Shown one piece after another: positions 6,999-32,047 of a stretch of 32,542 bases of DNA (its first letter is position 1; every line of letters starts with the position of its first letter). The stretch covers positions 1 through 32,542 of the forward strand of contig CALISW010000194.1 in NCBI GenBank assembly GCA_938041655.1, given 5' to 3'. The translations under genes and the position numbers were made by a program. The notes under the pieces are model-generated. The model did not search any database and was not told where the DNA came from. It saw only the letters and a list, made by a program, of their open reading frames with translations. This DNA is from an uncultured Thiotrichales bacterium. GTDB lineage: Bacteria > Pseudomonadota > Gammaproteobacteria > CAZUMV01.

Positions 6999-7017
6999 GA
7001 TTGGTCTCCCTTAGAAA

Positions 7018-7042: not shown

Positions 7043-7123
7043 ATAAGTTTACATGTTTTGTCTTGTTTGTGGGTGTCGAGGCATTGTACGAGTGCGAACT
7101 GCATTGCTGGTTCTAGTGGACGA

Positions 7124-16180: not shown

Positions 16181-16257
16181 TCCTGGTCAGAATAGAAGCA
16201 CAATGAAGTTGAGTAGTTAATAACAAGCTTGCAAGAGCTGCATACGGAGGAGTGGTT

Positions 16258-18645
16258 ATGAGTAGTTGTAATAGATTGAGGGGAGCTTTACTGGTGTTGT
16301 GTTTTGCACCATTGAGCTTGATGGCTGAGAGTGTCTTGGAAGAGATTACGGTAACAGCACAAAAGCGAGAGCAGAGTATTCAGGATGTTGGTATTGCCAT
16401 CAATGCTTTTTCTGGTGAGCAGATTAAAGCGTTGGGTATTACCAATACCGTAGATATCACACAGCAAATCCCGGGTTTGCAGGTGACTACATTTTCACCA
16501 AACTTAACTGCGTTTAATATTCGTGGTGTATCGCAGAATAACTTTACCGATAATCTGGAAGCGCCGATTGCGGTTTACATCGACGGTGCTTATGTTGCCA
16601 GTATGAACGCCATCAATGGTCAGTTGTTCGACGTTGAGCGTGTTGAAGCATTGAAAGGGCCACAAGGTACATTGTTCGGACGTAATGCGACCGGTGGTGT
16701 TATTCACTACATTACTAAAGCTGCCGATGAGGAAGAGTTAAATGGTTATGCTGAGGTTAGCGCTGCCGAATATGGCAAATTAGTCTTTGAAGGTGCGGTC
16801 GGAGGTTCATTCTCTGACACCGTTCGTTATCGTTTGTCAGCACGCCAGGAAGAATCTGATGGGTATATTGAATCTGCTAATTTTCCTGAAGGTAATCCTC
16901 TGCCAGCGAGTGGTATCGACCTTGGTGGTAGTGACGGTTACGCCATCCGTGCTGCACTTCAGTTCGATATTGGAGACTCGGGCACGTTTGATCTTAGCCT
17001 GAAGCATACTAAGGACGACGGCGTTCCAACGGGTGGCTACAGCTTTTTACCTTATGCCGACTTAAGTAATCCTGATGTATATATTCCACCAGAATTTGAG
17101 GATTTTGTAACTAACGTCATTGGTGCTCCTGCAGCGGCAACTGGCGATATTTTCTTCTGCCCCAGTCAGCTGGATTGTTTTACGCCAGTTGATAGTGCAG
17201 GACGTACTTTGTTTACCGGTGATCACCCAACTCCGTTTAATCACTTTTCTGATTATGAAGGCTTCATGGATCGTGAAACGAACAGTTTAACCGGTGAGTT
17301 TGATGTTGATTTAGACAATGGTATGAATCTGGTCTCTATCACCAACTTTATGGATCTGGATAAGTTCTACACTGAAGACGGTGACGGTATTCCAGTGCCG
17401 ATTATCGAATTTACGACGGTTTCTGACTACAGCCAGTTCTCACAGGAATTCAGATTGTCAGAGCAGTGTGACAACTTTAACTGGCAAGTGGGTTTGTACT
17501 ATCTTGATATGGAAACCGATGCAGACGTAATCACAGTGGGTGCTCCGGTTTCTGGTGTCGCAGCGAGTCTGGGCTTTGATCCAACAATGTTGACTGGCGC
17601 TCAAGTTGTACAGGACTACAACCTAACTTCTGAAAATATTTCAGTATTTGCTCAGGCTGAGTGGGATTTAAGCGATGCAACCACTTTAATCACTGGTTTG
17701 CGCTGGTCACAAGACGATAAGAAAATGGATTTTGCGACAGGTTTCCAAGCTGATACGGTTCCATTAATAACGTCATTTAATCTTGCAAACGCAATAGCGG
17801 CTGCGGGAGGCGGTGATCAGGATACTGTTGATTATAGCGACTTTGCTTTTCGTCTCGGATTGGATGTTCAGTTGAGCGATGAGACCTTGGCTTTCTTCTC
17901 GGTCAACCGTGGTATCAAAGGTGGTAACTTTGCGCCTTCTGCTGACGTGACATTAGATGGCATTAGGCATGATGAAGAAGTCTTGACGTCATATGAAGCT
18001 GGTCTTAAAACAGAGATCTTGGATGGCAAAGGTCGGTTAAATGCCACAGCATTTGTATATGACTATGATGATTATCAGGCTTTCACCTTTGCTGGCGGTA
18101 CACCTAGTGTTGCTAACGCTGATGCAGAAAACATCGGTCTTGAGCTGGAAGTATTCCTGACGCCAAATGACAACTGGGATGTTGTGCTTGGTGCATCCTT
18201 CCAGGAATCTGAAGTGAATAATGTACAGACGCCTCAGTTCCAGTTTACTCCGGTAGGTTTTCCGGTTGATTGGCCGGTAGACTTCCTGAATGGCGTTGAC
18301 CTTCCAAACACGCCTTCAGCTGCTTTGAATTACCTGTTTCGTTACAACACAGACATTGCTAATGGCAATATAGCATTACAGCTTGATGGTGCCTGGTACG
18401 ACGATCAGTTCCTTGAAGTGAGTAACGGTGGTGCGGCAGCGCAGGGCGCTTACAACACCAGTAATGCCAGTGTAACCTGGACCAGTGGTGATGACAGATG
18501 GCAAGTCACCGGTTGGGTCAAGAACCTGACGGATGAAGTGTACAAGCAGTACGCACTGGATCTGGGTATCCTTGGTGGTACGGTTGTATACGCTCCGCCA
18601 CGCTGGGCCGGTGTTAACGTCACTTACAAATGGGGCGCACAATAG
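16258..18645 (+). CDS. TonB-dependent receptor
   Basis: Outer-membrane active transporter of 795 residues. The ATG at 16258 is chosen because GGAGG at 16246-16250 gives 7-nt spacing; an in-frame GTG at 16252 would be only 1 nt from that site. A signal peptide ends near LSLMA, then the TonB box EEITVTAQKREQ, then a plug domain with FDVERVEALKGPQGTLFGRN. The beta-barrel runs to WAGVNVTYKWGAQ. The N-terminal 150 residues closely follow the receptor at the left edge, so they are diverged members of one family. It lies after the AraC gene, carries the shared activator motif upstream and is closed by a strong terminator, so it is a single-gene unit. The ligand is unknown. Confidence 0.95.
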   Translation: MSSCNRLRGALLVLCFAPLSLMAESVLEEITVTAQKREQSIQDVGIAINAFSGEQIKALGITNTVDITQQIPGLQVTTFSPNLTAFNIRGVSQNNFTDNLEAPIAVYIDGAYVASMNAINGQLFDVERVEALKGPQGTLFGRNATGGVIHYITKAADEEELNGYAEVSAAEYGKLVFEGAVGGSFSDTVRYRLSARQEESDGYIESANFPEGNPLPASGIDLGGSDGYAIRAALQFDIGDSGTFDLSLKHTKDDGVPTGGYSFLPYADLSNPDVYIPPEFEDFVTNVIGAPAAATGDIFFCPSQLDCFTPVDSAGRTLFTGDHPTPFNHFSDYEGFMDRETNSLTGEFDVDLDNGMNLVSITNFMDLDKFYTEDGDGIPVPIIEFTTVSDYSQFSQEFRLSEQCDNFNWQVGLYYLDMETDADVITVGAPVSGVAASLGFDPTMLTGAQVVQDYNLTSENISVFAQAEWDLSDATTLITGLRWSQDDKKMDFATGFQADTVPLITSFNLANAIAAAGGGDQDTVDYSDFAFRLGLDVQLSDETLAFFSVNRGIKGGNFAPSADVTLDGIRHDEEVLTSYEAGLKTEILDGKGRLNATAFVYDYDDYQAFTFAGGTPSVANADAENIGLELEVFLTPNDNWDVVLGASFQESEVNNVQTPQFQFTPVGFPVDWPVDFLNGVDLPNTPSAALNYLFRYNTDIANGNIALQLDGAWYDDQFLEVSNGGAAAQGAYNTSNASVTWTSGDDRWQVTGWVKNLTDEVYKQYALDLGILGGTVVYAPPRWAGVNVTYKWGAQ

Positions 18646-18708: not shown

Positions 18709-18773
18709 ATTAGTCAGAATTATTGTCATTTAATGCTTGTATGGTCAGCTGCTATCGCAGTATTGAGGTTAAT

Positions 18774-20474
18774 ATGTTGAATAAAGTTATGCGCATCATT
18801 GTTATTTGTCTTGCACTGTCATTACTGTTTGCTTGTGCTTCCGAGAATGTTGTTTCAAAGAGTGTCGATAAATCACAACCCAATATCCTGCTGATTCTCG
18901 TGGATGATATGGGCTATAGCGACATTGGAAGTTTTGGTGGTGAAATAGATACGCCCAACCTGGATGCGCTTGCTTACAACGGCACCCGGTTTACTAATTT
19001 CCACACGGCTTCTACTTGCTCACCCACCCGATCGATGTTGCTCAGTGGAGTTGATCATCATAAAGCCGGGTTGGGTAATATGTTGGAAGAGCTAAGTCCT
19101 AATCAAAAAGATCAGCCCGGTTATGAAGGTTATTTAAATGATCGAGTTGTGACAGTGGCGACCTTGTTAAAAGATGCGGGTTATTTTACTACCATGTCCG
19201 GTAAATGGCATTTGGGCCAGGGCGAAGGTTATCGTCCTTCTGATCGTGGTTTTGAAGATGCATTTTCTTTATTGGTGGGAGGGGCGAGTCATTTCGGTGA
19301 TATGCGTCCAGCGTACGCACCATCACCAGAGATAAAAGCAAAGTACGCTGAGAACGGTACCTTACTAGAGTCTTTGCCAGACGATTTTGAATATTCCTCA
19401 CAGTATTATGTTGATCGCATGATCACTTCGCTCGAGTCACGGGCTTCACGTGAGCAACCTTTCTTTGGCTATTTATCGTTTACTGCTCCGCACTGGCCGT
19501 TGCAGGCACCGGCGGCAAGCATCGAAAAGTATAAAGGCAATTACGCAGATGGTTATGACGTGTTGCTACAGCAGCGGCTGGCAAAATCGAAAGTACTGGG
19601 GGTTATTCCGGCAAGCGCAAATGCCAACAATGCACCGCCGGCTTATAAGCCATGGGATCAACTGGGCTCGGAGCGGAAGCAAATTGAAGAGCGTGCCATG
19701 GAAGTGTACGCAGCGATGATTGATGAAGTCGATGTGCAGACTGGACGTTTGATTAATTATCTGAAAAACAGTGGTGAGTTGGATAATACCGTTATCATCT
19801 TTATGTCGGATAACGGTGCCGAAGCACACGATCTGGACGAGACCTGGGATGCCAAGTTGTTTCCAGCAATTAGAAAAGTAATAGATGAGACGCATGACTT
19901 TAGTCTGGAGGCCATGGGTCATCCGGGGTCCTATGTATTGTATGGGCATGGCTGGGGGCGGGCAGGCTCGCCGGCATTTTCATTGTATAAAGCGTTTCCT
20001 ACAGAGGGGGGAACTCGAGTTGCCGCTTTTGCCTGGAACCCGAGGTGGGTGGCAAAAGGAAAATTACGCAATGAACTATTGTCCGTCAAAGATATAACAC
20101 CAACCTTGTTGGAGCTCGCCGGTGTCGAACATCCTGGTACTTCATATAAAGGAAAAGAGGTAGAGTCTATGACAGGCGTCTCGATGTTGCCTGTTTTGTC
20201 AGGCTCTGAAGCGTTGACGGATTATTCAACGCGAGTTTTGGGTGCTGAATTATTTGGTAAGCGCGCGATGCGACAAGGTGACTGGAAAATTGTTCATATG
20301 CCTGCGCCTTACAGTGACGAGGAATGGCATTTATACGATTTAGAATCTGATTTGGCAGAAAGCAAAAACCTGGCTGCAGTTGAGCCTGAAAAGTTTCAAC
20401 AGCTGTTGGGCTTATGGCAGGAATATTATGACGAGAATAATATAATCATCCCTGACTGGGTCAGCGGCTATTAA
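18774..20474 (+). CDS. Lipoprotein arylsulfatase (type I sulfatase)
   Basis: Sulfate-ester hydrolase of 566 residues from the ATG at 18774. This start has a GAGG ribosome site and directly yields a signal ending LLFAC (lipidated Cys21); in-frame upstream starts (TTG 18723, ATG 18741) would add a hydrophilic leader. Type I sulfatase signatures are DDMGYSDIG with metal ligands Asp44 and Asp45, and TASTCSPTRSMLLSG, where Cys82 of CSPTR is the residue converted to formylglycine. GKWHLG and IFMSDNGAEAHD complete the active site. It resembles Pseudomonas arylsulfatase around DHHKAGLGN. The enzyme that makes formylglycine is not in the window. It heads an operon with the SDR, PLP lyase-like and kinase genes, suggesting that desulfation releases an alcohol processed downstream. 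Confidence 0.93.
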   Translation: MLNKVMRIIVICLALSLLFACASENVVSKSVDKSQPNILLILVDDMGYSDIGSFGGEIDTPNLDALAYNGTRFTNFHTASTCSPTRSMLLSGVDHHKAGLGNMLEELSPNQKDQPGYEGYLNDRVVTVATLLKDAGYFTTMSGKWHLGQGEGYRPSDRGFEDAFSLLVGGASHFGDMRPAYAPSPEIKAKYAENGTLLESLPDDFEYSSQYYVDRMITSLESRASREQPFFGYLSFTAPHWPLQAPAASIEKYKGNYADGYDVLLQQRLAKSKVLGVIPASANANNAPPAYKPWDQLGSERKQIEERAMEVYAAMIDEVDVQTGRLINYLKNSGELDNTVIIFMSDNGAEAHDLDETWDAKLFPAIRKVIDETHDFSLEAMGHPGSYVLYGHGWGRAGSPAFSLYKAFPTEGGTRVAAFAWNPRWVAKGKLRNELLSVKDITPTLLELAGVEHPGTSYKGKEVESMTGVSMLPVLSGSEALTDYSTRVLGAELFGKRAMRQGDWKIVHMPAPYSDEEWHLYDLESDLAESKNLAAVEPEKFQQLLGLWQEYYDENNIIIPDWVSGY

Positions 20475-20483
20475 GGAGAGAGT

Positions 20484-21293
20484 ATGTTTGGAAAGCTAGA
20501 TAACAAGATTTGCATCATTACCGGTGCCGGTCAGGGCATTGGTGCGGGTATTGCTCGCGTGTTTGCAGAAGCAGGCGCTAAAGTCATGATCGCTACACGC
20601 ACCAAAGCCAGTGGTGAAGAAACCATGCAATCTATACTTGATGCTGGTGGTGAGGCTGCACTTTGCGCCGTTGATATAGGAACTCTAGAGAATGTTGAAA
20701 AGTCTGTAGAGCAAACGGTCGAGAAATGGGGTGGCGTGGATATCATGGTGCATAACGCGGCTTCTTTTCTAGGTGGCATGGTTTATGAGTATGATGAAGG
20801 TGATCTGGAAACCGTGCTCTCGGTAAACTTGAAGGCCTGCTTCCGTTATTCCAAAGCGTGCATCCCTCATTTCAGAAAGCGTGGTGGGGGTCGCTTGTTG
20901 TTTACCTCTTCGGTGACCGGGCCAAGAGTCGCCATGCCAGGCACTTCTTACTACGCTGCTTCCAAAGGTGGCATGAACGCGTTTATTCGCACTGCTTCAA
21001 TGGAGCTGGCGCGCGAAAATATTACCGTTAATGGAGTTGAGCCTGGTTACATACGTACCAAGGCGATGGAGCTGTTGGCCGATGAAGAAGGGCTGGCGCA
21101 AATGACCAAATATATACCAGCCGGTTATATGGGTAAGGCAGAAGATATCGCCTATGCCATGCTCTATCTTGCCAGCGATGAAGCAAGATACATTACGGGT
21201 CAAACCATTTGTGTTGACGGTGGTTCAACCTTGCCGGAGAGTCCGGTATTTCTGGAAGAGATGGATGGCATCAAGGAGCTTGCTGGTTCGTGA
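20484..21293 (+). CDS. Short-chain dehydrogenase/reductase
   Basis: Cytoplasmic classical SDR of 269 residues that interconverts an alcohol and a carbonyl using NAD(P). The cofactor motif is TGAGQGIG at 13-20, NAAS lies at 91-94, the catalytic Ser is in the TSS stretch at 141-143, and the YAASK motif gives Tyr157 and Lys161. GYIRTKAM and TGQTICVDGG follow as in FabG-like members. An AAGGAGAG ribosome site lies between the sulfatase stop and its ATG (9-nt gap), and its end overlaps the PLP enzyme start. It may oxidise the alcohol freed by the sulfatase or reduce an aldehyde formed by the lyase-like enzyme. The substrate is unknown. Confidence 0.93.
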   Translation: MFGKLDNKICIITGAGQGIGAGIARVFAEAGAKVMIATRTKASGEETMQSILDAGGEAALCAVDIGTLENVEKSVEQTVEKWGGVDIMVHNAASFLGGMVYEYDEGDLETVLSVNLKACFRYSKACIPHFRKRGGGRLLFTSSVTGPRVAMPGTSYYAASKGGMNAFIRTASMELARENITVNGVEPGYIRTKAMELLADEEGLAQMTKYIPAGYMGKAEDIAYAMLYLASDEARYITGQTICVDGGSTLPESPVFLEEMDGIKELAGS

Positions 21294-22570
21294 ACAAAAA
21301 TCAGGAGTTATTGGCGCGCAGGGAGCAATTACTCGGTACCGGTAATCCATTGTTCTACGAAGACCCTTTGCATCTGGTGAAGGGGGAGGGTGTCTGGTTG
21401 TACGATGCAGACGGGCGCAAGTATCTGGATTGTTATAACAATGTGCCTAGTGTGGGTCATTGTCATCCGCATGTGGTAGAGGCGTTGTGCGAACAAGCGA
21501 GAACTTTAAATATCCACACGCGTTACTTGCACGAAAATATTCTCGACTACGCCGAAAGATTATTACAGAAACTCGACCCGTCATTAGACAGGGTGATGCT
21601 AGCCTGTACAGGTAGTGAGGCAAATGAACAAGCCATGCGCATGGCGCGTCATTACACCGGTGGTACAGGTTTCATTTGCACCGACGCCAGTTATCACGGC
21701 AATACTTCATTGGTGGCGCAACTCAGTGCGATCTTTGAGCCCATAGAAGGCTATGCAGATTTTATTCGCATGGTTAAGTGGCCCGATTCCTATCGTTGTC
21801 TGGATGATCTGGAGGGTGAGGCGTTGGCTACCGCCTATGCTGATTGTGTAAAAGCAGCGATTGATTCCATGCATGAAGCTGGTATCAAACTAGCTGGCAT
21901 GTTGGTGTGCCCCATTTATGCGAACGAGGGATTGTCAGATGTATTGCCATCCTATTTGCAGCAAGCAGTAAAACACGTGCACGATGCAGGTGGCGTATTT
22001 ATCGCTGATGAAGTGCAATCTGCTTTTGGCCGTACTGGTACATTTTGGGGGCATGAGCAGGCCGGTGTGGTGCCCGATATTATGACGCTGGGTAAGCCCA
22101 TGGGTGCGGGTCATCCAATCTCGGGTGTGATCGCCAGATCAGAGATTATCGACGGTTACAGAAATGCAGCGATGTACTTTAATACCTTTGGTGGTAATCC
22201 GGTTTCTTGTGCCGCTGCCCTTGCCGTATTGGATGTTTTAGATCAGGAAAGCTTGGTGGAAAACGCAGCCGAAGTGGGTGACTATGTATTAAAAGGTTTT
22301 AAAGGTTTGCAAGACAAGCATGACATCATCGGTGATGTCAGAGGTTCGGGTTTGTTCTTTGGTATCGATATGGTCAAAGATCAAGCGACCAAAGAAGCGG
22401 CCCCGATTGAGACAAAAGCGTTGGTTAACAAAATGCGACATGCAGGTGTGTTAATGAGCAACATCGGCGCGCTGGATAATGTTTTAAAACTCAGGCCGCC
22501 ATTACCATTTTCAAAAGAGAACGCCGATTATTTGCTTGAGATACTGGACCAACAATTGAGTAGCCTATGA
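21290..22570 (+). CDS. Class III PLP enzyme, probable amino-alcohol phosphate phospho-lyase
   Basis: A 426-residue fold-type I PLP enzyme. The Schiff-base Lys269 is in TLGKPMGAGHP and Asp240 in FIADEVQSAFGRTG. Distinctive segments line up with remembered human ETNPPL (AGXT2L1), which eliminates phosphate and ammonia from phosphoethanolamine. They are YLDCYNNVPSVGHCHPHVVE, TRYLHENILDYAERL, YFNTFGGNPVSCA and IIGDVRGSGLFFGID. Plain omega-transaminases lack several of these. The start is a GTG whose last bases overlap the SDR stop (GTGA); the ATGA at its end overlaps an APH-fold kinase. The kinase/lyase pairing matches the known hydroxylysine kinase/phosphohydroxylysine lyase logic. An ordinary aminotransferase remains the alternative. 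Confidence 0.88.
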   Translation: MNKNQELLARREQLLGTGNPLFYEDPLHLVKGEGVWLYDADGRKYLDCYNNVPSVGHCHPHVVEALCEQARTLNIHTRYLHENILDYAERLLQKLDPSLDRVMLACTGSEANEQAMRMARHYTGGTGFICTDASYHGNTSLVAQLSAIFEPIEGYADFIRMVKWPDSYRCLDDLEGEALATAYADCVKAAIDSMHEAGIKLAGMLVCPIYANEGLSDVLPSYLQQAVKHVHDAGGVFIADEVQSAFGRTGTFWGHEQAGVVPDIMTLGKPMGAGHPISGVIARSEIIDGYRNAAMYFNTFGGNPVSCAAALAVLDVLDQESLVENAAEVGDYVLKGFKGLQDKHDIIGDVRGSGLFFGIDMVKDQATKEAAPIETKALVNKMRHAGVLMSNIGALDNVLKLRPPLPFSKENADYLLEILDQQLSSL

Positions 22571-23592
22571 GTGCAGCACAATACTTTTCGCTAAAGCCCG
22601 AACAGCAGCTGGAGTTGTTAACTAAGGCCGCTCATGCTTCTTTGCCCCATTGGTCGTTAGACGGCGCGCAACTGGAGCTTATCAAATTTCGTGAGAACGC
22701 AGTCTTTGCTGTTAATGCATCTGGCAAAAAAGTTGCACTGCGCGTACATCGTCTTGGCTACCATAGTAATCCTGCTTTGCAATCAGAATTGCAATGGATG
22801 CGCGCGCTGTCAGACAGCGGTATAGAAACACCCGTTGTAATACCGGCGCAAAACGGAGAGCTTTTTATTGAGCAAGCTCTGGAAGGGCTTTCTGCCAAGG
22901 TGCAGATCGATCTTTTCGAATGGATAGAGGGTGAGCAACTCGGGTCTGTTGAAGAAGGTGTGACAGATACTGCCAGCGTCAGTGCCTCATATTATTCAAT
23001 CGGTGAGCTGGCCGCTAAAGTGCACAATCAATCCAGTAGCTGGGAGTTGCCTGAAGACTTTACGCGTCACGCCTGGGATGAAGTTGGTTTGGCTGGCGAA
23101 CAGCCTTTGTGGGGTCGGTTTTGGGAAATAGAGCAAGCTAGCGATGCGCAAAGAGCGCTGTTAATAAAAGGTCGGGATCACGTGCTAAAAGCACTGTCAG
23201 CGTTGCCAAAAACGCGAAACGACTACGGCATGATTCATGCTGACCTGGTGACAGAAAATGTCATGGTTGATGATGGCAATGTAAAACTGATTGATTTCGA
23301 TGACGCCGGGTTTGGCTGGCATTTATTCGAGATTGCCACTGCTTTGTATTTTATTATCGATGAGCCGTATTACCAAAGCGCCCACGATGCCTTGCTGGAA
23401 GGCTATCGCAAACATCGTGAGCTCACGGATGCGCAGCTGGAACTATTGCCGTTGTTTTACCTGGCGCGTGCCTTCACCTATGTGGGCTGGGTTCATACTC
23501 GTCCGGAAACAGAGACGGCGTTAGAGTTAACCCCGGTGTTACTGGAGATGGCGTGTAAGCAAGTTAATCATTACTTTAAGAAGAGTCAATAA
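22567..23592 (+). CDS. APH-fold small-molecule kinase (hydroxylysine kinase-like)
   Basis: A 341-residue member of the aminoglycoside phosphotransferase/choline kinase-like family. The catalytic loop is YGMIHADLVTEN, giving Asp226 and Asn231. The metal-binding LIDFDDAGFGWHLFEIA has Asp243. The N-lobe has FRENAVFAV and a Lys/Arg-bearing KKVALRVHRLGYH strand. The family phosphorylates hydroxyl groups of small alcohols and amino alcohols. The ATG overlaps the stop of the phospho-lyase-like gene (ATGA), so the two are made together. The likely sequence is kinase phosphorylating an amino alcohol and the PLP enzyme then eliminating phosphate and ammonia to give an aldehyde. Resistance to an aminoglycoside is unlikely in this setting. 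Confidence 0.88.
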   Translation: MSAAQYFSLKPEQQLELLTKAAHASLPHWSLDGAQLELIKFRENAVFAVNASGKKVALRVHRLGYHSNPALQSELQWMRALSDSGIETPVVIPAQNGELFIEQALEGLSAKVQIDLFEWIEGEQLGSVEEGVTDTASVSASYYSIGELAAKVHNQSSSWELPEDFTRHAWDEVGLAGEQPLWGRFWEIEQASDAQRALLIKGRDHVLKALSALPKTRNDYGMIHADLVTENVMVDDGNVKLIDFDDAGFGWHLFEIATALYFIIDEPYYQSAHDALLEGYRKHRELTDAQLELLPLFYLARAFTYVGWVHTRPETETALELTPVLLEMACKQVNHYFKKSQ

Positions 23593-23695: not shown

Positions 23696-25114
23696 ATGGC
23701 TAAAAAATACGATATGACCATTGGTGGTCAGACAGTGGCTACAGACGATTATATAGAGGTCCGCAATCCGGCAAATACAGATGAGGTAGTAGGTCTGGCT
23801 CCTGTCGGCAATAATTCACATGTCAATCAGGCTATCAGTGCGGCCAAGGATGCCTTCGCAACATGGCGTAAATCATCTGACGAAGAGCGTGTTGCCGCCG
23901 TACAAACTATCGCCAAAGTGTGTGAGGACAATGCTGAAGAACTCGCCGAGCTGCTTACCAAAGAACAAGGAAAGCCTCTCAATGGTAATGGTTCAAGATT
24001 TGAATTGGGTGGCTGTGCTGGTTGGGCTGGCTATACTTCTTCTATCGGTCTTTCTGAAAAAGTTCTGGAAGACAGTGAAGAAAGCAACATTGTCATGCAA
24101 CGTCACCCGCTGGGCGTGGTGGGCTCAATCACTCCATGGAACTGGCCGCTGATGATTGCTATCTGGCACATCGCACCGGGTGTTAGAACCGGTAACACCG
24201 TGGTGATCAAGCCATCCCCTTATACACCATTAAGCACATTACGTATGGTGCAATTGATTGCTGAGGCATTACCACCGGGTGTTGTTAACGTAGTCTCAGG
24301 TGGGGATGAAATCGGCGCACAATTGACTGATCATGATGACATCAACAAAATTGTATTTACCGGATCACTGGCAACTGGTAAGAAAGTAATGGCTTGCGCT
24401 GCCAAGCGTGTTACTCCGGTAACGCTGGAGCTGGGTGGTAATGATGCAGGCATTGTTTTGCCGGGCACGGATGTTTCCCAATTCGCTGAAGGGTTGTTCT
24501 GGGGTTCAATGTTGAATTCGGGTCAGACTTGTGGCGCGCTCAAGCGTTTATATGTACACGACGACCAGTATGATGCGGCGTGCAAAGCGATGGTGGAAAT
24601 CGCACAAGCAATACCAATGGGTGATGGCATGGATGAGAACAGTATTCTTGGTCCGCTGCAGAACAAACAACAGTTCGATATTGTTTCAAACCTGGTCAAC
24701 GATGCGCGTGACAATGGCGCTAAAGTATTGTGCGGTGGTGACCCTCAAGGTGGTAACAACTACTTCTATCCTGTCACGATTGTTGGTGATGCGGTCGATG
24801 GCATGCGTCTTGTTGATGAAGAGCAATTCGGAACTGCCTTACCCATCATTCGTTATAGTGATGTTGATGATGCCATTGCTGCTGCTAACGGGCTTGACTA
24901 CGGTCTGGATGCTTCAGTCTGGGGTCATGACAAGGATCAGCTTGCTGATGTAGCTGGCCAATTAGAGGCAGGTACAGTACTGATCAATAAGCACATCGGT
25001 ATTGCTCCACATGTGCCTTTCGGCGGCATAAAAGGCTCAGGGTTAGGCGTGGAATTTGGTCAGGAAGGACTTGAGGCTTACACTTACATAAAAGTAATTA
25101 ACGCTGCTGCGTAA
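23696..25114 (+). CDS. Aldehyde dehydrogenase of the amine dehydrogenase operon
   Basis: A 472-residue ALDH-superfamily enzyme. Catalytic Asn149 is in PWNWP, Glu245 in LELGGNDAG and nucleophile Cys279 in NSGQTCGALKR. The FTGSLATGKK cofactor loop is present. An AGGAG ribosome site precedes the ATG. It is the first gene after the shared activator motif and lies 12 nt before the amine dehydrogenase heavy chain. The natural inference is oxidation of the aldehyde released from a primary amine, for example an arylacetaldehyde; the aldehyde must first cross the inner membrane. It has the shorter form typical of succinate semialdehyde-like or phenylacetaldehyde-like groups, so substrate identity stays open. 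Confidence 0.93.
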   Translation: MAKKYDMTIGGQTVATDDYIEVRNPANTDEVVGLAPVGNNSHVNQAISAAKDAFATWRKSSDEERVAAVQTIAKVCEDNAEELAELLTKEQGKPLNGNGSRFELGGCAGWAGYTSSIGLSEKVLEDSEESNIVMQRHPLGVVGSITPWNWPLMIAIWHIAPGVRTGNTVVIKPSPYTPLSTLRMVQLIAEALPPGVVNVVSGGDEIGAQLTDHDDINKIVFTGSLATGKKVMACAAKRVTPVTLELGGNDAGIVLPGTDVSQFAEGLFWGSMLNSGQTCGALKRLYVHDDQYDAACKAMVEIAQAIPMGDGMDENSILGPLQNKQQFDIVSNLVNDARDNGAKVLCGGDPQGGNNYFYPVTIVGDAVDGMRLVDEEQFGTALPIIRYSDVDDAIAAANGLDYGLDASVWGHDKDQLADVAGQLEAGTVLINKHIGIAPHVPFGGIKGSGLGVEFGQEGLEAYTYIKVINAAA

Positions 25115-25126
25115 AGGGGAATAGTT

Positions 25127-26500
25127 ATGCAAAAGTTAATCTACATAGTTGGCGTTCTAGCGCTGATCACTTTGTTTGGTTGTAGTGATGATTCGCGCGA
25201 GACAATTTCTGATGCTTCGGATACGGTTCAGCGTGTTGCCGAAGTTGTGTCGGAAGAGGTAAGTGCAAATAATAGCTCTGTTGCGGAGGAGGCTACCGAG
25301 TCTGTTGAGAATTCTGGTGCTGAAGCTGTTGAGGAAGTTGCAGCGGCTGACATGGAGAATTCTGGTACTGAAGCTGTTAAGGAAGTTGCAGCGGCTGACA
25401 AGGGAAGTAAGGCTGAACTCAAGCCGGAACAAATTGGTGTAGTTGAAACTTTGCCAGAGCAATATCCAGCCGAATGGATACTGATTCAGGATGCCGCTTT
25501 TTTCCATATGTTAGATGGTCGTCTGTTAGTGGTAGATGCGAGTTCAGATGACTCGGCGCGTCGTTATAAGGGTATGTTTAATTCATCGATTATTGGCCAG
25601 TTTGCTCAGTCAACCACACGACCCGAACTGTATTCAGTCGATACCTATTTGTCCCGTGGTACTAGGGGCGAACGTACTGATGTATTTACCATATACGACA
25701 AACGTACTCTGGCACCGGTTGGTGAAGTTGTGTTGCCAGCCAAGCGTTCCAGTAATATGCCTACTATCTATAATCTACAACTGGTTGATGATGAGAAGCT
25801 CGCCCTGGTTTATAACTTTACCCCGGCAGCATCGGTTTCTATTGTTGATCTTGATAGTAGAACCTTTTTGGGTGAAGTACCGATTCCTGGTTGCGCCCTT
25901 GCATACCCGATGGCAGGCCGAGGATTTAGTACCGTCTGTGGTGATGGCACTATACAGACTGTAAATATCGGTGCTAATTCAGATGACATCGTATCCAATC
26001 GTACCGATGCATTCTTTGATTATGAAAATGATCCTCTAATGGAGAAAGCTGTGCAGATTGGAAGCATGACCTATTTTCCAACCTTCAAAGGTAATATTCA
26101 GCCTGTTGACATGAGTGGTGATATAGCTGTGCCCGGTGAAGCCTGGTCTATGCTGGGAGACGGTGATGAAGGCTGGCTACCTGGAGGATTGCAATCTACC
26201 GGTGTTGATGATGCGGGCAGAATGTATGTGCTCATGCATCCTGAGGGTGCTGAAGGCACACATAAAAACCCCGGTTCTGAAGTTTGGGTTTATGATGTTG
26301 AGAACCAACAACGTGTTGATCGTATTAAGCTCAAGTTACCGGCAATATCTATGGGTATCACTCGAGGTGAAGATCCGCTCATGGTTACGACCAATATAAA
26401 TCTCGTGATAGATGTTTATAAAGTCAAAAGTGGTGAGTATTTACGCACCATAGCTGACATCGGTGCAGAGACCCCGTTTATGTTGCATGGCGCACGATAA
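25127..26500 (+). CDS. aauB: Aromatic amine dehydrogenase heavy chain, lipoprotein-type
   Basis: Large subunit of the TTQ-dependent amine dehydrogenase, a seven-bladed beta-propeller that holds the light chain in the periplasm. The 457 residues include a signal ending TLFGC with Cys19 fitting a lipobox. An acidic low-complexity region of about 80 residues follows and contains a duplicated 16-residue unit. The propeller starts near residue 110. Segments such as AGRMYVLMHPEGAEGTHKNP and VWVYDVENQQRVDRI line up with remembered Alcaligenes faecalis aromatic amine dehydrogenase rather than with generic propellers. The light chain starts 11 nt after the stop. The extra linker and probable lipid anchor are unusual for this family. 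Methylamine dehydrogenase is the alternative name; light-chain features favour the aromatic type. Confidence 0.9.
   Translation: MQKLIYIVGVLALITLFGCSDDSRETISDASDTVQRVAEVVSEEVSANNSSVAEEATESVENSGAEAVEEVAAADMENSGTEAVKEVAAADKGSKAELKPEQIGVVETLPEQYPAEWILIQDAAFFHMLDGRLLVVDASSDDSARRYKGMFNSSIIGQFAQSTTRPELYSVDTYLSRGTRGERTDVFTIYDKRTLAPVGEVVLPAKRSSNMPTIYNLQLVDDEKLALVYNFTPAASVSIVDLDSRTFLGEVPIPGCALAYPMAGRGFSTVCGDGTIQTVNIGANSDDIVSNRTDAFFDYENDPLMEKAVQIGSMTYFPTFKGNIQPVDMSGDIAVPGEAWSMLGDGDEGWLPGGLQSTGVDDAGRMYVLMHPEGAEGTHKNPGSEVWVYDVENQQRVDRIKLKLPAISMGITRGEDPLMVTTNINLVIDVYKVKSGEYLRTIADIGAETPFMLHGAR
25307..25402 (+). repeat. 48-bp tandem duplication in the heavy-chain linker
   Basis: Two direct copies (25307-25354 and 25355-25402) differ at only three bases, all non-synonymous. 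Each encodes a 16-residue unit beginning ENSG and ending VAAAD plus Met or Lys (residues 61-76 and 77-92). The frame is preserved. The near identity points to recent duplication in a linker between the lipid anchor and the propeller. Confidence 0.95.
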
Positions 26501-26511
26501 GGAGTATACAA

Positions 26512-27030
26512 ATGAAATGGTTAGATAAGATCACTGAAACACGCGCCCGCAAAGTCGCTCAATCAACTTCTCGTCGTGGCTTTTTAGGTAAGCTCGCGAC
26601 GGTAGTGGTTGGTACAACCGCAGCCGTACCATTGTTGCCGGTAGCCAGAGCAGAACAATCAGGAGGCCAACAACCTGCTGAAGAGGGTGACCCTAATAGT
26701 TGTGACTATTGGCGCTTTTGTGCCATTGATGGATTTTTATGTGGCTGTTGTGGTGGCAGTATCAATACTTGTCCGCCAGGGACCGAGATGTCACCAATTA
26801 CCTGGATAGGTACCTGTGAAAATCCGGTTGATGGCAGAAACTATATCATCTCTTATAACGATTGTTGTGGTAAGACTAGCTGTGGAAATTGTCTGTGTCA
26901 GCGTAATGAGGGTGATCGTCCTATGTACCGGCCTCAACTGTCTAACGATCTTAACTGGTGTCTTGGTACACAAAGTGTCGCTTACAACTGTTCTACCGCA
27001 GTCGTAATTGGTACCGCTCTGGATGAATAA
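26512..27030 (+). CDS. aauA: Aromatic amine dehydrogenase light chain (TTQ subunit)
   Basis: Catalytic small subunit whose two tryptophans are crosslinked and oxidised to TTQ. The product has 172 residues. A twin-arginine leader (TSRRGFLGK) ends ARA at about residue 47. By alignment with remembered Paracoccus methylamine dehydrogenase, the TTQ tryptophans are Trp98 (ITWIGTC) and Trp149 (LNWCLG). Asp117 in YNDCCGK is the catalytic base position and Asp73 in AIDG matches a maturation residue. Fourteen Cys are present. The extra pair at 80 and 124 (CGCCGG, CCGKTSCG) matches the aromatic amine dehydrogenase pattern and is absent from methylamine dehydrogenase. An AAGGAG ribosome site lies right after the heavy-chain stop. 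Electrons probably pass to the cytochrome encoded next. Confidence 0.95.
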   Translation: MKWLDKITETRARKVAQSTSRRGFLGKLATVVVGTTAAVPLLPVARAEQSGGQQPAEEGDPNSCDYWRFCAIDGFLCGCCGGSINTCPPGTEMSPITWIGTCENPVDGRNYIISYNDCCGKTSCGNCLCQRNEGDRPMYRPQLSNDLNWCLGTQSVAYNCSTAVVIGTALDE

Positions 27031-27486
27031 GTGCTGCGTGGTTTAGCACTAGTTACCCTCAGCTTGCTTGCTTTCAACGCGTATGCTCAAGACAAGCGCG
27101 CATACAACAATTACATGCTGCATTGTCAGGGTTGTCATTTGCCGCAAGGCAAAGGAGCTTTGGGAGCCGTGCCACGTTTACAAAATTTCGTTGGTTACTT
27201 TCTTCATTCTCGTGAAGGCCGTGAGTTTATCGCTCAAGTACCCGGTGTAACCATGTCTTCGCTTGATAATGAAGAGCTGTCCGAGTTGCTCAACTGGATG
27301 GTACGTGCTTACAGCGAAGAGCAACTGCCTGAGCAGTTTGAGCCATACACATCCGCTGAGATTGCACAGCTACGAAAAACTCCAAACCCTGATCCGCTGG
27401 GACAGAGAAACTCAATTCTGGATGTGGTTGCTGAAGGATTGCCAGTGCTAGCTGACGAGATAGCAACAGATGGTTATGCGTACTAA
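27031..27486 (+). CDS. Periplasmic monohaem cytochrome c of the amine dehydrogenase operon
   Basis: A 151-residue secreted cytochrome c. Translation starts at a GTG placed immediately after the light-chain TAA. The signal peptide ends NAYAQ at about residue 20. The haem motif is CQGCH at 32-36, and Met75 in PGVTMSSL is a likely distal ligand. Only one CXXCH is present, so it is not a dihaem MauG-type enzyme. A small monohaem cytochrome gene is also described beside the Alcaligenes faecalis aromatic amine dehydrogenase genes. Its place directly after the light chain makes it the probable electron acceptor, since no azurin or amicyanin gene is seen. Dependence on the light-chain ribosome run-through is suggested by the zero-base spacing. 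Confidence 0.92.
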   Translation: MLRGLALVTLSLLAFNAYAQDKRAYNNYMLHCQGCHLPQGKGALGAVPRLQNFVGYFLHSREGREFIAQVPGVTMSSLDNEELSELLNWMVRAYSEEQLPEQFEPYTSAEIAQLRKTPNPDPLGQRNSILDVVAEGLPVLADEIATDGYAY

Positions 27487-27514
27487 TAACAATAACTAAA
27501 GTTAGAGGAAAGAG

Positions 27515-28696
27515 ATGCTGAATTCATTACTAGGTAAAAAAGATCGTGCCGTTGATATAGATTCCAGCGTTTCGATTCTTGCCATCTTGTGGATCGCATT
27601 CATTGGTACTCATGTATTCATTGTGCAGCCGGGGTTTGTGCAAGGTTTAATCGAGTACGTCGGCTTTGCCGAAGAGCAAGCCGGTTTGTTGGCATCCTGG
27701 GAGGGGTGGGGCATTGCAGTCGGTACTATATTGGTTATGTTTATTGCCAATAAATTCTCCTGGCGTTTGTTGACTCTGATTTTCATCGTTATGTGTGTGG
27801 CAGGAAATGCCTTGTCTATCGGTCAAGCGAGTTATGAGTCATTAAGAGCTTTGCGTTTTCTGACCGGTGTTGGTGCTGGTGGCATGATTGCTCTGACCTT
27901 TGTGATGGCAGGTCTTACTGCGAGAGCCGATCGTAATTTCGCTTTAATTATTGTGCTGGTGTTAAGTTACGGAACGATTGTAATGTGGGCGATGCCCAGT
28001 GCCTATCAGTCTATCGGTATGAAGGGCATGCTAATTTTCTTTTGTTTGTTCTGTTTGTCGGGTTTATTCTTTTTGCGCAACTTGCCAGACTCGGGTCAGG
28101 CTCATGCCGACCTGAAGGGCAACTATGATTATCAAAGCTGGTTACGCTTTTCGACACTGGCTGCAATTCTGGTCTTCAATATAGGTATTGGCATCGTCTG
28201 GGTGTTTTTGTTTCCGGTGGGACTGGAAACCGGCATGTCAGAACAAGGTGTCGCCAATGTCATCATGATCTCACAATTGTTTGGTATCACAGGTGCATTA
28301 TTCGTTGTCTTTAATGAGGTGCGCTTTGGACGCTTGATGCCGTTGATGATTGGCATGATTGCTCTGTCTTTTTCGATTTATATGTTGCTCGGTGATACCA
28401 GTCAACGGGATTTCTGGATCGCTGTCTGTGGCTTTAACTTGCTATGGAATGTGATCATGCCTTACACCTTGTCGACTTCGGGTGATTTTGATGCACATGG
28501 CAAAACGGTCTCGTATGCTGTGGCTTTGCAAATGATTGGTCTGGCAATAGGGCCGTTTGTAGCGACTCGATTACTCTCAACCGGTGGGTTTGATGCGGGT
28601 AGCCGGGCAGCAATTATTGCGTTCCTTGTTGCCGCCGTTTTAATTCTACCCGGTGTATTGGCTCAGCGTAGTCGTTTGCCGTCAAAGAGTGCCTGA
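27515..28696 (+). CDS. Major facilitator superfamily transporter
   Basis: Inner-membrane carrier of 393 residues with about twelve hydrophobic helices. It has an MFS-like first half (LRALRFLTGVGAGGMIALTFVMAG) and a central hydrophilic loop around SGQAHADLKGNYDYQ near residue 190. A GAGGAAAG ribosome site precedes the ATG. It is embedded in the amine dehydrogenase operon, 28 nt after the cytochrome gene and 3 nt before the dioxygenase gene. It may import the aldehyde or acid product, or the amine itself, into the cytoplasm where the aldehyde dehydrogenase and aminotransferase work. Substrate and direction are not readable from sequence. Confidence 0.88.
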   Translation: MLNSLLGKKDRAVDIDSSVSILAILWIAFIGTHVFIVQPGFVQGLIEYVGFAEEQAGLLASWEGWGIAVGTILVMFIANKFSWRLLTLIFIVMCVAGNALSIGQASYESLRALRFLTGVGAGGMIALTFVMAGLTARADRNFALIIVLVLSYGTIVMWAMPSAYQSIGMKGMLIFFCLFCLSGLFFLRNLPDSGQAHADLKGNYDYQSWLRFSTLAAILVFNIGIGIVWVFLFPVGLETGMSEQGVANVIMISQLFGITGALFVVFNEVRFGRLMPLMIGMIALSFSIYMLLGDTSQRDFWIAVCGFNLLWNVIMPYTLSTSGDFDAHGKTVSYAVALQMIGLAIGPFVATRLLSTGGFDAGSRAAIIAFLVAAVLILPGVLAQRSRLPSKSA

Positions 28697-28699
28697 TTC

Positions 28700-29530
28700 A
28701 TGGCGCGTAACCTTAGCGATAAAGAGATAACTGCATTTCGCCGGGATGGCGTAGTGCATGTTACTAATGCTATTGAAGAACAGTGGATGCAAAAAGTTGA
28801 TGCGGTTATTGAGCAACAACTTGAGCAACCGAGTAAGTGGGGTAATGACGGTAACCCCGGTCAGGCAAAAGACCGTATGTTTACCGATCGTTATCTGTGG
28901 AAATCAAATCAGCACATAAGAGATTTCGTGATGCAGGCAGGCTGTGGTCGTTTGGCTGGTCAGGCGATGGGCTCTAACTCCACCCGCTTTTATTTTGACC
29001 ATCTTCTGGTTAAGGAGCCGGAAACCAGCGCACCAACCCCATGGCATCAAGACGTTCCTTACTGGCCTTTTAACGGGCAACAGATATGTTCAGTCTGGGT
29101 CGCTCTGAGTGATACAACAATTCAAGGCAGTGCGATGGAGTTTGTGCGTGGTTCACATCTGGATGGTAAGTATTATATGCCTGAGTTATTTGCCGCGCGA
29201 GAGGATCATCCGTCATCCTGGCAGTTGGAAGGAGAGGGTGAGCGCGTACCAGATATTGAAGCTGACCGTGATCAATACGATATTGTCGGCTGGGATGTGA
29301 AACGTGGTGATGCTGTAATTTTCTCAGCCTGGATATTGCATGGTGCGCCTGGCAACAGTTCCTTAACCTCGAGACGCTCTGCAATTTCAACCCGCTGGTT
29401 GGGTGATGATTCTGTGTGGTATCCACATACAGGCGCTGACCCTACCGTCACCGATGATGATGTAAGCATCGCGGCTGGTGAATATCCGGCTGATGATGAC
29501 AACTTTCCGCATGTGTGGAACAAAGAGTAA
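28700..29530 (+). CDS. PhyH-family Fe(II)/2-oxoglutarate dioxygenase
   Basis: A 276-residue phytanoyl-CoA dioxygenase-type enzyme. The iron facial triad is visible as His116 and Asp118 in TPWHQDVPYWPF and His214 in WILHGAPGNS. Arg225 or Arg226 in SSLTSRRSA is placed to bind 2-oxoglutarate. VWVALSDTT and AMEFVRGSH are standard family segments. There is no signal peptide, so it is cytoplasmic. It starts 3 nt after the transporter stop and ends 4 nt before the aminotransferase start, so it is inside the amine dehydrogenase operon, where such a gene is not part of the classical set. It probably hydroxylates the substrate or a metabolite. A role in light-chain maturation is a more speculative option. 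Confidence 0.9.
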   Translation: MARNLSDKEITAFRRDGVVHVTNAIEEQWMQKVDAVIEQQLEQPSKWGNDGNPGQAKDRMFTDRYLWKSNQHIRDFVMQAGCGRLAGQAMGSNSTRFYFDHLLVKEPETSAPTPWHQDVPYWPFNGQQICSVWVALSDTTIQGSAMEFVRGSHLDGKYYMPELFAAREDHPSSWQLEGEGERVPDIEADRDQYDIVGWDVKRGDAVIFSAWILHGAPGNSSLTSRRSAISTRWLGDDSVWYPHTGADPTVTDDDVSIAAGEYPADDDNFPHVWNKE

Positions 29531-29534
29531 TACT

Positions 29535-30881
29535 ATGAGTAAGACAGCATCAAATTTTGGTCCAATGTGGCTTGGTATGGCTTCACCGCGAATGTCCGAA
29601 CAGGTAGATCCATTGATTGTTGAGCGTGGTGAAGGCGTCTATGTCTACGATAAAGATGGCAATCGCTTGCTGGATTCACAAGGCGGACTATGGTGTGTGA
29701 ATATTGGTCATGGCCGACCTGAGATGAAAGAGGCTATCACCAATCAATTAGACAAGATTGCCTGCTACAACAATTTTGTTGATACCTCGAATAATCCTGC
29801 AATCGAGCTGAGTAAAAAAGTCATCTCGATGACTCAAGAAGAAGACATGGCACGAGTCATGTTTTGCTCTGGTGGTTCGGATGCCAATGAAACAGCTTTA
29901 AAGCTGGCGCGGCAATACTGGAAGCTTAAGGGTATGCCGGAACGCACTAACTTCATTTCCATGCAGTACGGCTATCATGGTGTGCATTTTGGTGGCATGT
30001 CTATCAATGGCAATGACTACTACAAAGAGCCTTATGGTCCGGTATTGCCGGGTTGCTATCAGATCCCCAGTCCATTTACTTATCGTAATGAGATTTCAGA
30101 TGATCCTGTTGAGTTGGCCGAGCATTGTGCGCAAAAATTCGAAGAGAAATTATTAGAGCTTGGGCCTGAAACCGTTGCTGCATTCATCGGTGAACCTATC
30201 CAGGGTGCGGGTGGAGGCGTGGTTATACCTCCGAAAAACTTCTGGCCTCGTATCCGTGAGATTTGTGACAAGTATGAAGTACTATTGATTTGCGATGAAG
30301 TCATCACAGGCTTTGGAAGATCGGGCTCTATGTTTGGTAGTCGTGGTGCCGGTATCGCACCCGACATCATGTGTTTGGCGAAAGGAATCAGTTCTGGCTA
30401 TATACCATTGGGGGCTACAGTCGTTAACCAGCGGGTGGCTTCAGCCTGGGAAGTTGATGGCCCTGAAGGGTTGATTATGCATGGCTTTACCTATATGGGT
30501 CATCCATTAGCCTGTGCTGCCGGTTTAACAGCACTATCGATTGTGGAGAAAGAAAATCTCCCAGCTAATGCAGCTGATGTCGGGGCGTATTTCTTACAGC
30601 AGTTAATGCCTCTATTGGATAAGTATGAGGCTATCGGTGACGTGCGTGGTAAGGGTTTAATGATTGCTATCGAGTTGGTAAAAGACCGAGCCACTAAAGA
30701 ACCTTTAGGTCATGATGATGAGTCACCCTTAATGGTCTCACGAGCGGCTATGCAGCGCGGGCTGATCATAAGAGCCCTTGCCAATAGCTTGATAATGTCT
30801 CCGCCACTGATATTCAGTAAAGAGAATGCTGATGAGGCGGCTGCTATTATCGATCAAGCATTTGCTGCGGTTTACTCCTAG
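29535..30881 (+). CDS. Class III aminotransferase of the amine dehydrogenase operon
   Basis: A 448-residue PLP enzyme starting at ATG 29535. An in-frame ATG at 29478 would overlap the dioxygenase by 53 nt, so it is rejected. PLP-binding features are CSGGSDANETALKLAR, YHGVHFGGMSINGN, ICDEVITGFGRSG with Asp254, and Schiff-base Lys283 in CLAKGISSGYIPLGA. HGFTYMGHPLACAA follows, as in omega-amino acid:pyruvate aminotransferases. It shares many segments with the aminotransferase at 10748-12100, so they are paralogues in different operons. Its partners are a dioxygenase, a transporter and the TTQ dehydrogenase. It may act on a second amino group, a beta- or omega-amino acid, or a hydroxylated intermediate. 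Confidence 0.93.
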   Translation: MSKTASNFGPMWLGMASPRMSEQVDPLIVERGEGVYVYDKDGNRLLDSQGGLWCVNIGHGRPEMKEAITNQLDKIACYNNFVDTSNNPAIELSKKVISMTQEEDMARVMFCSGGSDANETALKLARQYWKLKGMPERTNFISMQYGYHGVHFGGMSINGNDYYKEPYGPVLPGCYQIPSPFTYRNEISDDPVELAEHCAQKFEEKLLELGPETVAAFIGEPIQGAGGGVVIPPKNFWPRIREICDKYEVLLICDEVITGFGRSGSMFGSRGAGIAPDIMCLAKGISSGYIPLGATVVNQRVASAWEVDGPEGLIMHGFTYMGHPLACAAGLTALSIVEKENLPANAADVGAYFLQQLMPLLDKYEAIGDVRGKGLMIAIELVKDRATKEPLGHDDESPLMVSRAAMQRGLIIRALANSLIMSPPLIFSKENADEAAAIIDQAFAAVYS

Positions 30882-30898
30882 CACTTGAGGTTTTTGAA

Positions 30899-31450
30899 AT
30901 GTCTTTAATCGAATCGGAACTGTTGTTTTCAACACTGGCACTAATCGTTCGTTTGGGGTTGTTGGTACTTTTCGTTTTTTCGTTGGCACACAAGCTGCGT
31001 AATCTTTCACTGTTTAATGAAAACATCAGAGACTATCGATTAACGCCTGAAGGGCTTAACGCGGTTGTTGCCGCAGCGATATTGTTTGTTGAGTTTTCTA
31101 TTGTGATTTTACTTGTAGCCAAGCCAGTAATCGGGTTTGCTTTGGCTGGGTCAATGTTGTTGCTGTATGCGGTGGCGATGTTTATCAATCTGATGCGAGG
31201 TAGGTCTACTATTGACTGTGGTTGTGGACGTGCAGGCACGGGCCAGACAATAAGTTACTCGCTGGTCATGCGAAATATAGCTATTAGCCTGGTGGCGTTT
31301 TTATCAACGCAAGGCCCTGCTATAGCATCATTCTCACAGCAGCAGTTATTGCTTGGCCTGGCGGGTCTGGTAGTGACTATGTTGTTATACAGTGCGATCA
31401 ATGAGCTCTTGGTGAACGCGCCAAAATTACATAAATTAAGGACACGCTAA
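30899..31450 (+). CDS. mauE: MauE-type membrane protein for light-chain maturation
   Basis: A 183-residue inner-membrane protein with four or five hydrophobic helices and a CXC pair (Cys107 and Cys109 in DCGCGRAG) in the loop after the third helix. MauE proteins work with MauD to export and form the many disulfides of the TTQ light chain; Alcaligenes faecalis has an equivalent, AauE. A TGAGG ribosome site precedes the ATG. It is separated from the dehydrogenase subunits by cytochrome, transporter, dioxygenase and aminotransferase genes, whereas in the known aau cluster it lies between the subunits. The mauD start follows the stop with no gap. Confidence 0.88.
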   Translation: MSLIESELLFSTLALIVRLGLLVLFVFSLAHKLRNLSLFNENIRDYRLTPEGLNAVVAAAILFVEFSIVILLVAKPVIGFALAGSMLLLYAVAMFINLMRGRSTIDCGCGRAGTGQTISYSLVMRNIAISLVAFLSTQGPAIASFSQQQLLLGLAGLVVTMLLYSAINELLVNAPKLHKLRTR

Positions 31451-32047
31451 ATGCTGGTAGTTTCAAATATAGTCTTGTGGATATTGGTCGTTGTTTTATG
31501 CGTTGTGGTTATCGCATTGACGCGTCAGATAGGTTTATTACATGAGCGCATCGCACCGGCAGGTGCTCTTGCTATGAGTAAGGGGCCGAAAGTGGGCGCG
31601 CAACTTCCAGCGTTATCGCTTGAAACCTTGTCTGGCAAGAATATGGATCTGTCAGTAGGGCAGTCATCTGGCAAGAGTCGTTTGTTCTTTTTTCTGTCCA
31701 CTACCTGTCCTGTTTGCAAAACACTCTTGCCGGTGTTGAAGTCCAGTCAGAATGCAGAAAGTAAATGGCTGGATATCATCTTAACCAGCGATGGTAAAGT
31801 TGAAGATCATGAGAAGCTGGTGTCTAAAGAAAAGCTGGAACAGTTTCCTTATATTGTGTCTGAAGAATTCGGGCGTGAATTACAGATCGGTAAGTTACCC
31901 TACGTGGTGCTGGCTAACAGCGACGGACAGATTCGTGCGCACGGTCTGGTGAACTCGCGTGAGCATATTGAGAGCATCTTTGAAGCTCATGAGCGAGGCG
32001 TTGAGTCTATTCAGGAATATCTAGAGCAACAAGGTATCGAAGCCTGA
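31451..32047 (+). CDS. mauD: MauD-type thioredoxin-like disulfide protein
   Basis: A 198-residue membrane-anchored thioredoxin-like protein. One N-terminal hydrophobic segment (residues 4-24) precedes a periplasmic redoxin domain beginning VGAQLPALSLETLSG. The active site is STTCPVCK with Cys86 and Cys89, a CPVC motif typical of MauD. A cis-Pro region is seen in IGKLPYVVL. It is thought to act with MauE in disulfide formation or isomerisation of the light chain, which has fourteen Cys here. AAGGA inside the mauE end gives the ribosome site and the genes abut. It is the last gene of the operon; a hairpin follows its stop. Confidence 0.9.
   Translation: MLVVSNIVLWILVVVLCVVVIALTRQIGLLHERIAPAGALAMSKGPKVGAQLPALSLETLSGKNMDLSVGQSSGKSRLFFFLSTTCPVCKTLLPVLKSSQNAESKWLDIILTSDGKVEDHEKLVSKEKLEQFPYIVSEEFGRELQIGKLPYVVLANSDGQIRAHGLVNSREHIESIFEAHERGVESIQEYLEQQGIEA

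Follow-up and report, generated by a model that had tools for sequence, protein, structure and literature searches.

Positions 23696 to 32047 of contig CALISW010000194.1 (assembly GCA_938041655.1), from an uncultured Thiotrichales bacterium, carry nine almost abutting open reading frames (ORFs) on the + strand, including those for the two chains of an aromatic amine dehydrogenase (AADH) with the protein-derived cofactor tryptophan tryptophylquinone (TTQ). The whole stretch analysed, called the window below, is 32,542 nucleotides long and belongs to a genome of 2.93 Mb that is 84.6% complete. The classic case of a protein-derived cofactor assembled from a distance by a haem enzyme is that of MauG; to our knowledge, the route of TTQ formation in AADH, the other TTQ enzyme, has not been established. 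The reading that we favour, if at a probability slightly short of even, is that these genes form a complete aau-type operon whose TTQ is made without MauG, the most likely replacement being CytC2, a small monohaem c-type cytochrome that lacks the Met ligand loop and is encoded directly downstream of the light chain.

The nearest solved structures of both subunits are those of the Alcaligenes faecalis AADH and not of methylamine dehydrogenase (MADH). The heavy chain AauB (25127 to 26500, + strand) matched Me-amine-dh_H at 1.6e-27 and the AADH heavy chain 2h3x_A at 1.2e-50, versus 9.5e-30 for MADH. The light chain AauA (26512 to 27030, + strand) matched Me-amine-dh_L at 1.2e-52 and the AADH light chain 2agl_D at 2.7e-47. 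Scores with the methylamine dehydrogenase models were below the cut-offs for the light chain (164.9 against 196.85, TIGR02659) and for the heavy chain (105.5 against 454). Residue-by-residue alignment with 2agl_D placed W98 and W149 of AauA on the TTQ tryptophans and also aligned D117, confirming the initial annotation of this DNA, according to which both tryptophans and the catalytic Asp are kept. AauA also keeps D73 and 14 Cys residues after the signal region, and its twin-arginine (Tat) motif reads SRRGFL. Judged by these features, the enzyme is almost certainly an aromatic amine dehydrogenase of the AADH/aau type. A dehydrogenase working without TTQ, or a decayed operon, would fit the lack of a MauG gene in the operon, but all the genes are open, conservation extends to the two TTQ tryptophans, the two aspartates and the cysteines, and mauE and mauD are kept, which makes this explanation extremely improbable.

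The N-terminus of AauB (window 25127 to 25450) has a lipoprotein-like signal, LITLFGC, and an acidic extension of about 70 residues with an internal repeat (VENSGAEAVEEVAAADM / ENSGTEAVKEVAAADK). As relatives of the same clade with a readable AauB start have a short Sec-like signal instead, the AADH of the window may be tethered to the membrane.

No gene of the operon codes for two haem motifs, CytC2 having a single CxxCH and no match to PF03150, and no mauG, mauF, mauJ or amicyanin gene was found in the window, which was also the scope of the search for MauL, MauM and MauN. The genome contains a single light-chain gene, so that no second aau locus with a mauG-type gene, the finding that would have contradicted the initial annotation, exists there. 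A genome scan with the light chain yielded 421 relatives, and we analysed the loci of the best 80 of them. In 79 of these 80 fetched loci there was no gene of the dihaem MauG family near aau, the exception being locus L017. The absence of mauG from the operon, to which the initial annotation had drawn attention, is thus real but is not a special loss, as it is the rule for aau clusters. Among plasmid records, mauG was absent from all seven aau loci (two from Pseudomonas aeruginosa and those from Cupriavidus, Haematobacter, Paracoccus sp., Chimaeribacter and Burkholderia), and mauG and the mau gene set were present in all four mau loci.

The model TIGR03791 was discarded as the sole test for MauG, because the characterised Paracoccus denitrificans MauG scores only 96.8 bits, far under the cut-off of 443.85, and is missed by annotation with this model. 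We used the absence of PF03150 instead, calibrated with four MauGs from mau clusters, including that of P. denitrificans, which scored 153 to 188 bits. The Methylobacterium-type MauG, 33 to 35% identical to the P. denitrificans type, obtains 554 bits with TIGR03791. None of 47 aau genomes exceeded the TIGR03791 cut-off, which P. denitrificans MauG also fails, and nine of the 47, unmatched by the MauG model, also lacked any protein above the PF03150 cut-off. Seven of these nine are annotated as isolates (Alteromonas confluentis, Vibrio galatheae, Pseudomonas sp. BN411, P. marincola, Novosphingobium jiangmenense, N. taihuense and Alloalcanivorax xenomutans). Drafts may miss genes, yet this many misses are unlikely. 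In Pseudomonas, genomes without a PF03150 dihaem protein made up 19 of 48 with aau and 9 of 20 without (Fisher p=0.79); dihaem proteins and aau show no association in this genus. We consider it highly probable that TTQ formation in aau systems is independent of MauG.

In 78 of 81 loci the CytC2 gene (27031 to 27486, + strand, in the window) was found, each time after aauA, 80 aauA genes being followed by it. The three loci without it are L058, whose contig ends about 320 bp further on, L062 and L049. The linkage was also seen in two sets independent of the window. Among 300 Pseudomonas genomes, the light chain was present in 48 (50 genes), and strong CytC2 matches occurred in exactly those 48 (50 genes), all 50 being paired with a light chain on the same strand, 18 to 402 bp downstream of it. 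Their scores ranged from 134 to 174 bits, the best score elsewhere being 32 bits; owing to kinship within the genus, the Fisher value for this set overstates the number of independent events. In the plasmid records, CytC2 accompanied seven of seven aau loci and none of the four mau loci. The initial annotation had raised the possibility that TTQ is made by an operon member not yet linked to this task; CytC2 provides a specific candidate, for a role that we infer.

A conserved flavoprotein of the QhpG/LodB/GoxB-like kind (PMC7876137) at aau loci was considered and rejected. The genes around aauA included no recognisable flavoprotein, although not all minor gene clusters were identified. Besides the aau and cytochrome gene clusters, only TonB-type receptors, MauE/MauD and ALDH (aldehyde dehydrogenase) reached more than 19 loci.

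A clinical-isolate plasmid of P. aeruginosa (locus L109; pF061_1, 4647 to 8416) carries a compact set of six genes, aauB-mauE-mauD-aauA and two cytochrome genes. Recombinase genes flank it left and right, and a Tn3 transposase is encoded close by. As this set is probably a mobile cassette, it suggests that the six genes are sufficient, housekeeping functions aside.

CytC2 matched no Pfam family at E<=0.001. Its model shows a predicted class I cytochrome c fold with a mean pLDDT (predicted local distance difference test) of 94.1, and its nearest solved relative is cytochrome c552 of Thermus thermophilus (1c52), by profile (1.3e-23) and as the top fold match (E 1.6e-3). The profile alignment with c552 consists of two matching blocks and skips c552 residues 52 to 72, which include the Met ligand of that protein. 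The conserved Arg-to-Asn spacing is 24 residues in 79 of 79 measurable CytC2 proteins, versus 41 to 43 in the Met-type paralogue c1, in which the Met is kept in 24 of 25 proteins; a Met-ligand loop of about 18 residues is missing in CytC2. There is no Met at all in the loop region of 56 of the 67 aligned CytC2 proteins, and the invariant residues are C32, G34, C35, H36, P48, G72, N88 and R115. In class I electron-transfer cytochromes, a Met on the loop that precedes the C-terminal helix serves as the sixth ligand; CytC2 does not have it. Going by these alignments, its haem is very probably without the usual sixth ligand and, because the Met-ligand loop is lost, a coordination site of the iron is probably open. 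The other cytochromes at aau loci are a Met-type c1 in 24 and a dihaem c4-like protein in 18, and CytC2 is alone in 38, the window included. Conventional Met-ligated carriers are dispensable at aau loci.

MauG works by long-range electron transfer, turning a mono-hydroxylated precursor into finished TTQ (PMC7876137), and of its two haems one is five-coordinate and one six-coordinate, as in the MauG-like protein BthA (PMC6405878). CytC2 is the natural candidate for a MauG replacement, as it probably has an open site, is predicted to be periplasmic and is encoded nearly always beside aauA, where MauG is lacking. In the proposed sequence of events, AauA would be exported by the Tat pathway and AauB by its export signal, while MauE and MauD would support the disulfide-rich light chain. 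CytC2 would be exported to the periplasm, where its open haem iron would meet H2O2 or O2, and the haem would draw electrons from the two tryptophans in a role like that of the high-spin haem of MauG. The periplasmic AADH would then convert an arylalkylamine into its aldehyde, which ALDH would oxidise further to the acid. That CytC2 is the TTQ maturation factor is, in our estimate, plausible but somewhat below an even chance.

CytC2 might instead be a dedicated electron acceptor of AADH, TTQ being produced by some other enzyme, either unlinked or housekeeping, or arising largely by self-processing after the disulfides have formed. The operon linkage would fit an acceptor equally well, and the class I fold of CytC2 is nearest that of Thermus c552, an electron carrier. 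MauE and MauD are retained as well, at other places in the genome where the operon does not carry them, which is also consistent with this explanation. However, the Met loop is deleted in every CytC2 measured, which is unusual for a carrier, and Met-type carriers are optional. Unaided TTQ formation is not expected either, as MADH requires MauG (PMC7699789). We regard an acceptor as a serious but rather doubtful explanation. Linkage alone does not decide the matter; it is the universal loss of the loop and the optional nature of the Met-type carriers that, at the sequence level, speak for a maturation role.

Several points weigh against TTQ maturation by CytC2 without MauG. Perfect linkage would also be expected of a dedicated electron acceptor. 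The single haem of CytC2 must do the work of the two haems of MauG, and CytC2 has no second haem and no obvious Tyr ligand. The spin state is not readable from sequence, and another residue, e.g., the invariant N88, could bind the iron. Two of the loci without CytC2 are L062, an aau paralogue from a genome in which a further aau locus does carry CytC2, and L049, on a short contig. At L017, a dihaem gene (4678 to 5676, - strand) whose product shares 50% identity with P. denitrificans MauG across 332 aa faces the aauA-CytC2 pair; the protein has Ala at the position of the inter-haem Trp of MauG. Lastly, the window's genome encodes two unlinked dihaem proteins, C24 (397 aa) and C253, which are under the TIGR03791 cut-off, as is P. 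denitrificans MauG with its 96.8 bits, and both score as high as that MauG.

The presence of C24 and C253 lends some substance to the other suggestion of the initial annotation, namely, that TTQ is made by genes elsewhere, but many aau genomes have no dihaem protein of the CCP/MauG kind. In the window's genome, it could be C24 that makes TTQ. This protein outscores P. denitrificans MauG on TIGR03791, has a Tyr at the MauG axial-ligand position and, as aligned, retains the MauG pocket residues Trp, Gln, Pro and Glu. Its identity is 32% with Methylobacterium MauG and 28% with that of P. denitrificans, those two being 33 to 35% identical to each other. Nevertheless, the same pocket residues are found in the other unlinked dihaem protein, C24 is not encoded near aau, many aau genomes are devoid of a PF03150 protein, and in Pseudomonas the presence of dihaem proteins is unrelated to that of aau. 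A role of C24 in TTQ formation is therefore unlikely.

The PhyH-type 2-oxoglutarate dioxygenase of the operon (28700 to 29530, + strand; PF05721, 5.5e-31) is an oxygenase encoded together with AauA and was considered as the enzyme that hydroxylates the TTQ tryptophan. We rejected it, as only 2 of 81 loci carry PhyH. It also has no signal peptide, whereas AauA folds in the periplasm, and a catabolic step fits it better; its involvement in TTQ formation is hardly conceivable.

Returning to CytC2, a Met-loop-less single-haem cytochrome could be the TTQ-forming factor of aau systems generally and an independent second solution to the chemistry of the dihaem MauG, a proposal that we put forward tentatively and rate as rather less than evenly probable. 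The comparison shows that aau systems exist without any MauG-family protein, and it names one small, near-perfectly linked gene whose product has an unusual haem site. If the proposal is true, multi-electron tryptophan chemistry is carried out by a monohaem protein of 150 residues, the view that two haems and long-range hole hopping are necessary would change, and a compact tool would be at hand. If the maturation role is wrong, CytC2 nonetheless stands out as a peculiar Met-less partner found at almost every AADH locus.

We then considered the arrangement of the operon. The gene order given in the initial annotation, from ALDH to mauE and mauD, is correct: all nine ORFs are at their assigned places, and profile searches confirmed their families. 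The membrane protein MauE/AauE, for light-chain maturation, is encoded at 30899 to 31450 (+ strand; PF07291, 1.7e-22) and is the sole copy above the cut-off in the window's genome. The thioredoxin-like accessory protein MauD/AauD follows at 31451 to 32047 (+ strand; TIGR02661, 186 bits, cut-off 188.6). Among 83 heavy/light pairs, mauD lies between aauB and aauA in 49, and the genes follow each other without mauD between them (B-A) in 34. Because 34 of the 83 related pairs are also B-A, the aauBEDA order is usual but not family-defining. The window belongs to a clade of 12 pairs (supports 0.95 to 0.995), all without mauD between aauB and aauA. The order, termed rearranged in the initial annotation, thus differs from the B-E-D-A order of most aau loci, but the B-A state is common to the whole clade. 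What is peculiar to the window is the position of mauE/mauD at the end of the operon, behind the aminotransferase gene. Of 22 B-A genomes tested, including that of the window, 18 have a strong MauD gene (>=170 bits); in those of the 18 other than the window's genome, MauD lies outside the fetched locus and is therefore relocated, not lost. Genome searches at the family and order levels were empty, the order comprising only three genomes. Six loci (L009, L030, L041, L047, L055 and L067) contain two sets of heavy and light chains, which points to side-by-side amine dehydrogenases.

The remaining operon genes, all on the + strand, have metabolic or transport annotations. The ALDH (23696 to 25114; PF00171 (Aldedh), 9.3e-139), whose gene adjoins aauB in related Woeseia-type loci, is expected to oxidise the aldehyde produced by the amine dehydrogenase. 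A major facilitator superfamily (MFS) transporter is encoded at 27515 to 28696 (PF07690 (MFS_1), 2.1e-12), and a class III aminotransferase of the PRK07481 subfamily at 29535 to 30881 (NF005683, 627.6 bits, cut-off 575). For the latter, the ATG at 29535 is the more likely start than the GTG at 29478, which overlaps the dioxygenase gene. A PRK07481-type paralogue is present at 10748 to 12100 (- strand; 727 bits, cut-off 575).

The operon lies within a larger same-strand island predicted to serve aromatic-amine catabolism. Its upstream part encodes an AraC-family regulator nearest FeaR, the aromatic-amine regulator (15165 to 16139; NF007243, 164 bits, cut-off 199), a TonB-dependent outer-membrane receptor (16252 to 18645), an arylsulfatase-like hydrolase (18723 to 20474; NF010322, 126 bits, under the cut-off) and an SDR (short-chain dehydrogenase/reductase) oxidoreductase (20484 to 21293), the likes of which stand beside the same genes in L004 to L008. 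Next come a class III pyridoxal phosphate (PLP) enzyme of the amine-phosphate phospho-lyase kind (21290 to 22570; phospholyase 5g4i, 1.8e-119; ethanolamine-phosphate phospho-lyase 6tor, 4.4e-103) and an APH-like small-molecule kinase that is homoserine-kinase/PRK06148-like (22567 to 23592; 35.5 bits with the kinase portion of the PRK06148 fusion). The kinase and phospho-lyase pair is conserved beside ALDH-aauBA in Woeseia-type loci, and it points to an additional way of reaching these aldehydes, starting from beta-hydroxyamines. As this pair and AADH would both yield an aldehyde, both could feed the ALDH encoded between them. A substrate like octopamine or tyramine, perhaps sulfated, would fit. 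Arylsulfatase-like genes occur near aau both here and on a Cupriavidus plasmid (L102, 11170 to 12567), and sulfated aromatic amines may be substrates. Farther away, on the - strand at 7124 to 9431, are genes for a flavin amine oxidoreductase (8001 to 9431), a 158-aa protein that matches no Pfam family and a cytochrome c (7124 to 7531), possibly a second amine-oxidising unit by analogy with flavin amine dehydrogenases that use cytochrome c.

Compared with known systems, the operon shares with the A. faecalis aau cluster and with the aauA/aauB loci of P. aeruginosa plasmids the AADH-type chains, MauE, MauD, a cytochrome c gene directly after aauA and the lack of mauG. It differs from the aau cluster in that mauE/mauD follow the aminotransferase gene instead of lying between aauB and aauA, in having no Met-type cytochrome, in the built-in ALDH, MFS, PhyH and aminotransferase genes, and in the acidic N-terminal extension of AauB. 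Outside Pseudomonadota, a Thermomicrobium roseum plasmid (L106) has a distant TTQ-like locus with two light-chain-like genes and a MauE protein, and no heavy chain or MauG was recognised there within about 7 kb. The mau cluster of Paracoccus and Methylobacterium likewise encodes a two-subunit TTQ enzyme with MauE and MauD. Unlike the window, it has mauF, mauJ, the dihaem mauG and napG/napH-like genes; three of the four mau loci also encode amicyanin, and the cluster has no Met-loop-less cytochrome. Thermus c552 possesses the Met-ligand segment that the aau cytochrome CytC2 lacks. Also related are the Woeseia-type aau loci (L003 to L012 and L050), which belong to the window's clade, have aauB directly before aauA and in most cases share the upstream phospho-lyase, kinase and ALDH genes. 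In those loci mauE/mauD are found elsewhere or on the opposite strand, and most have a second, Met-type cytochrome, whereas in the window mauE/mauD close the operon.

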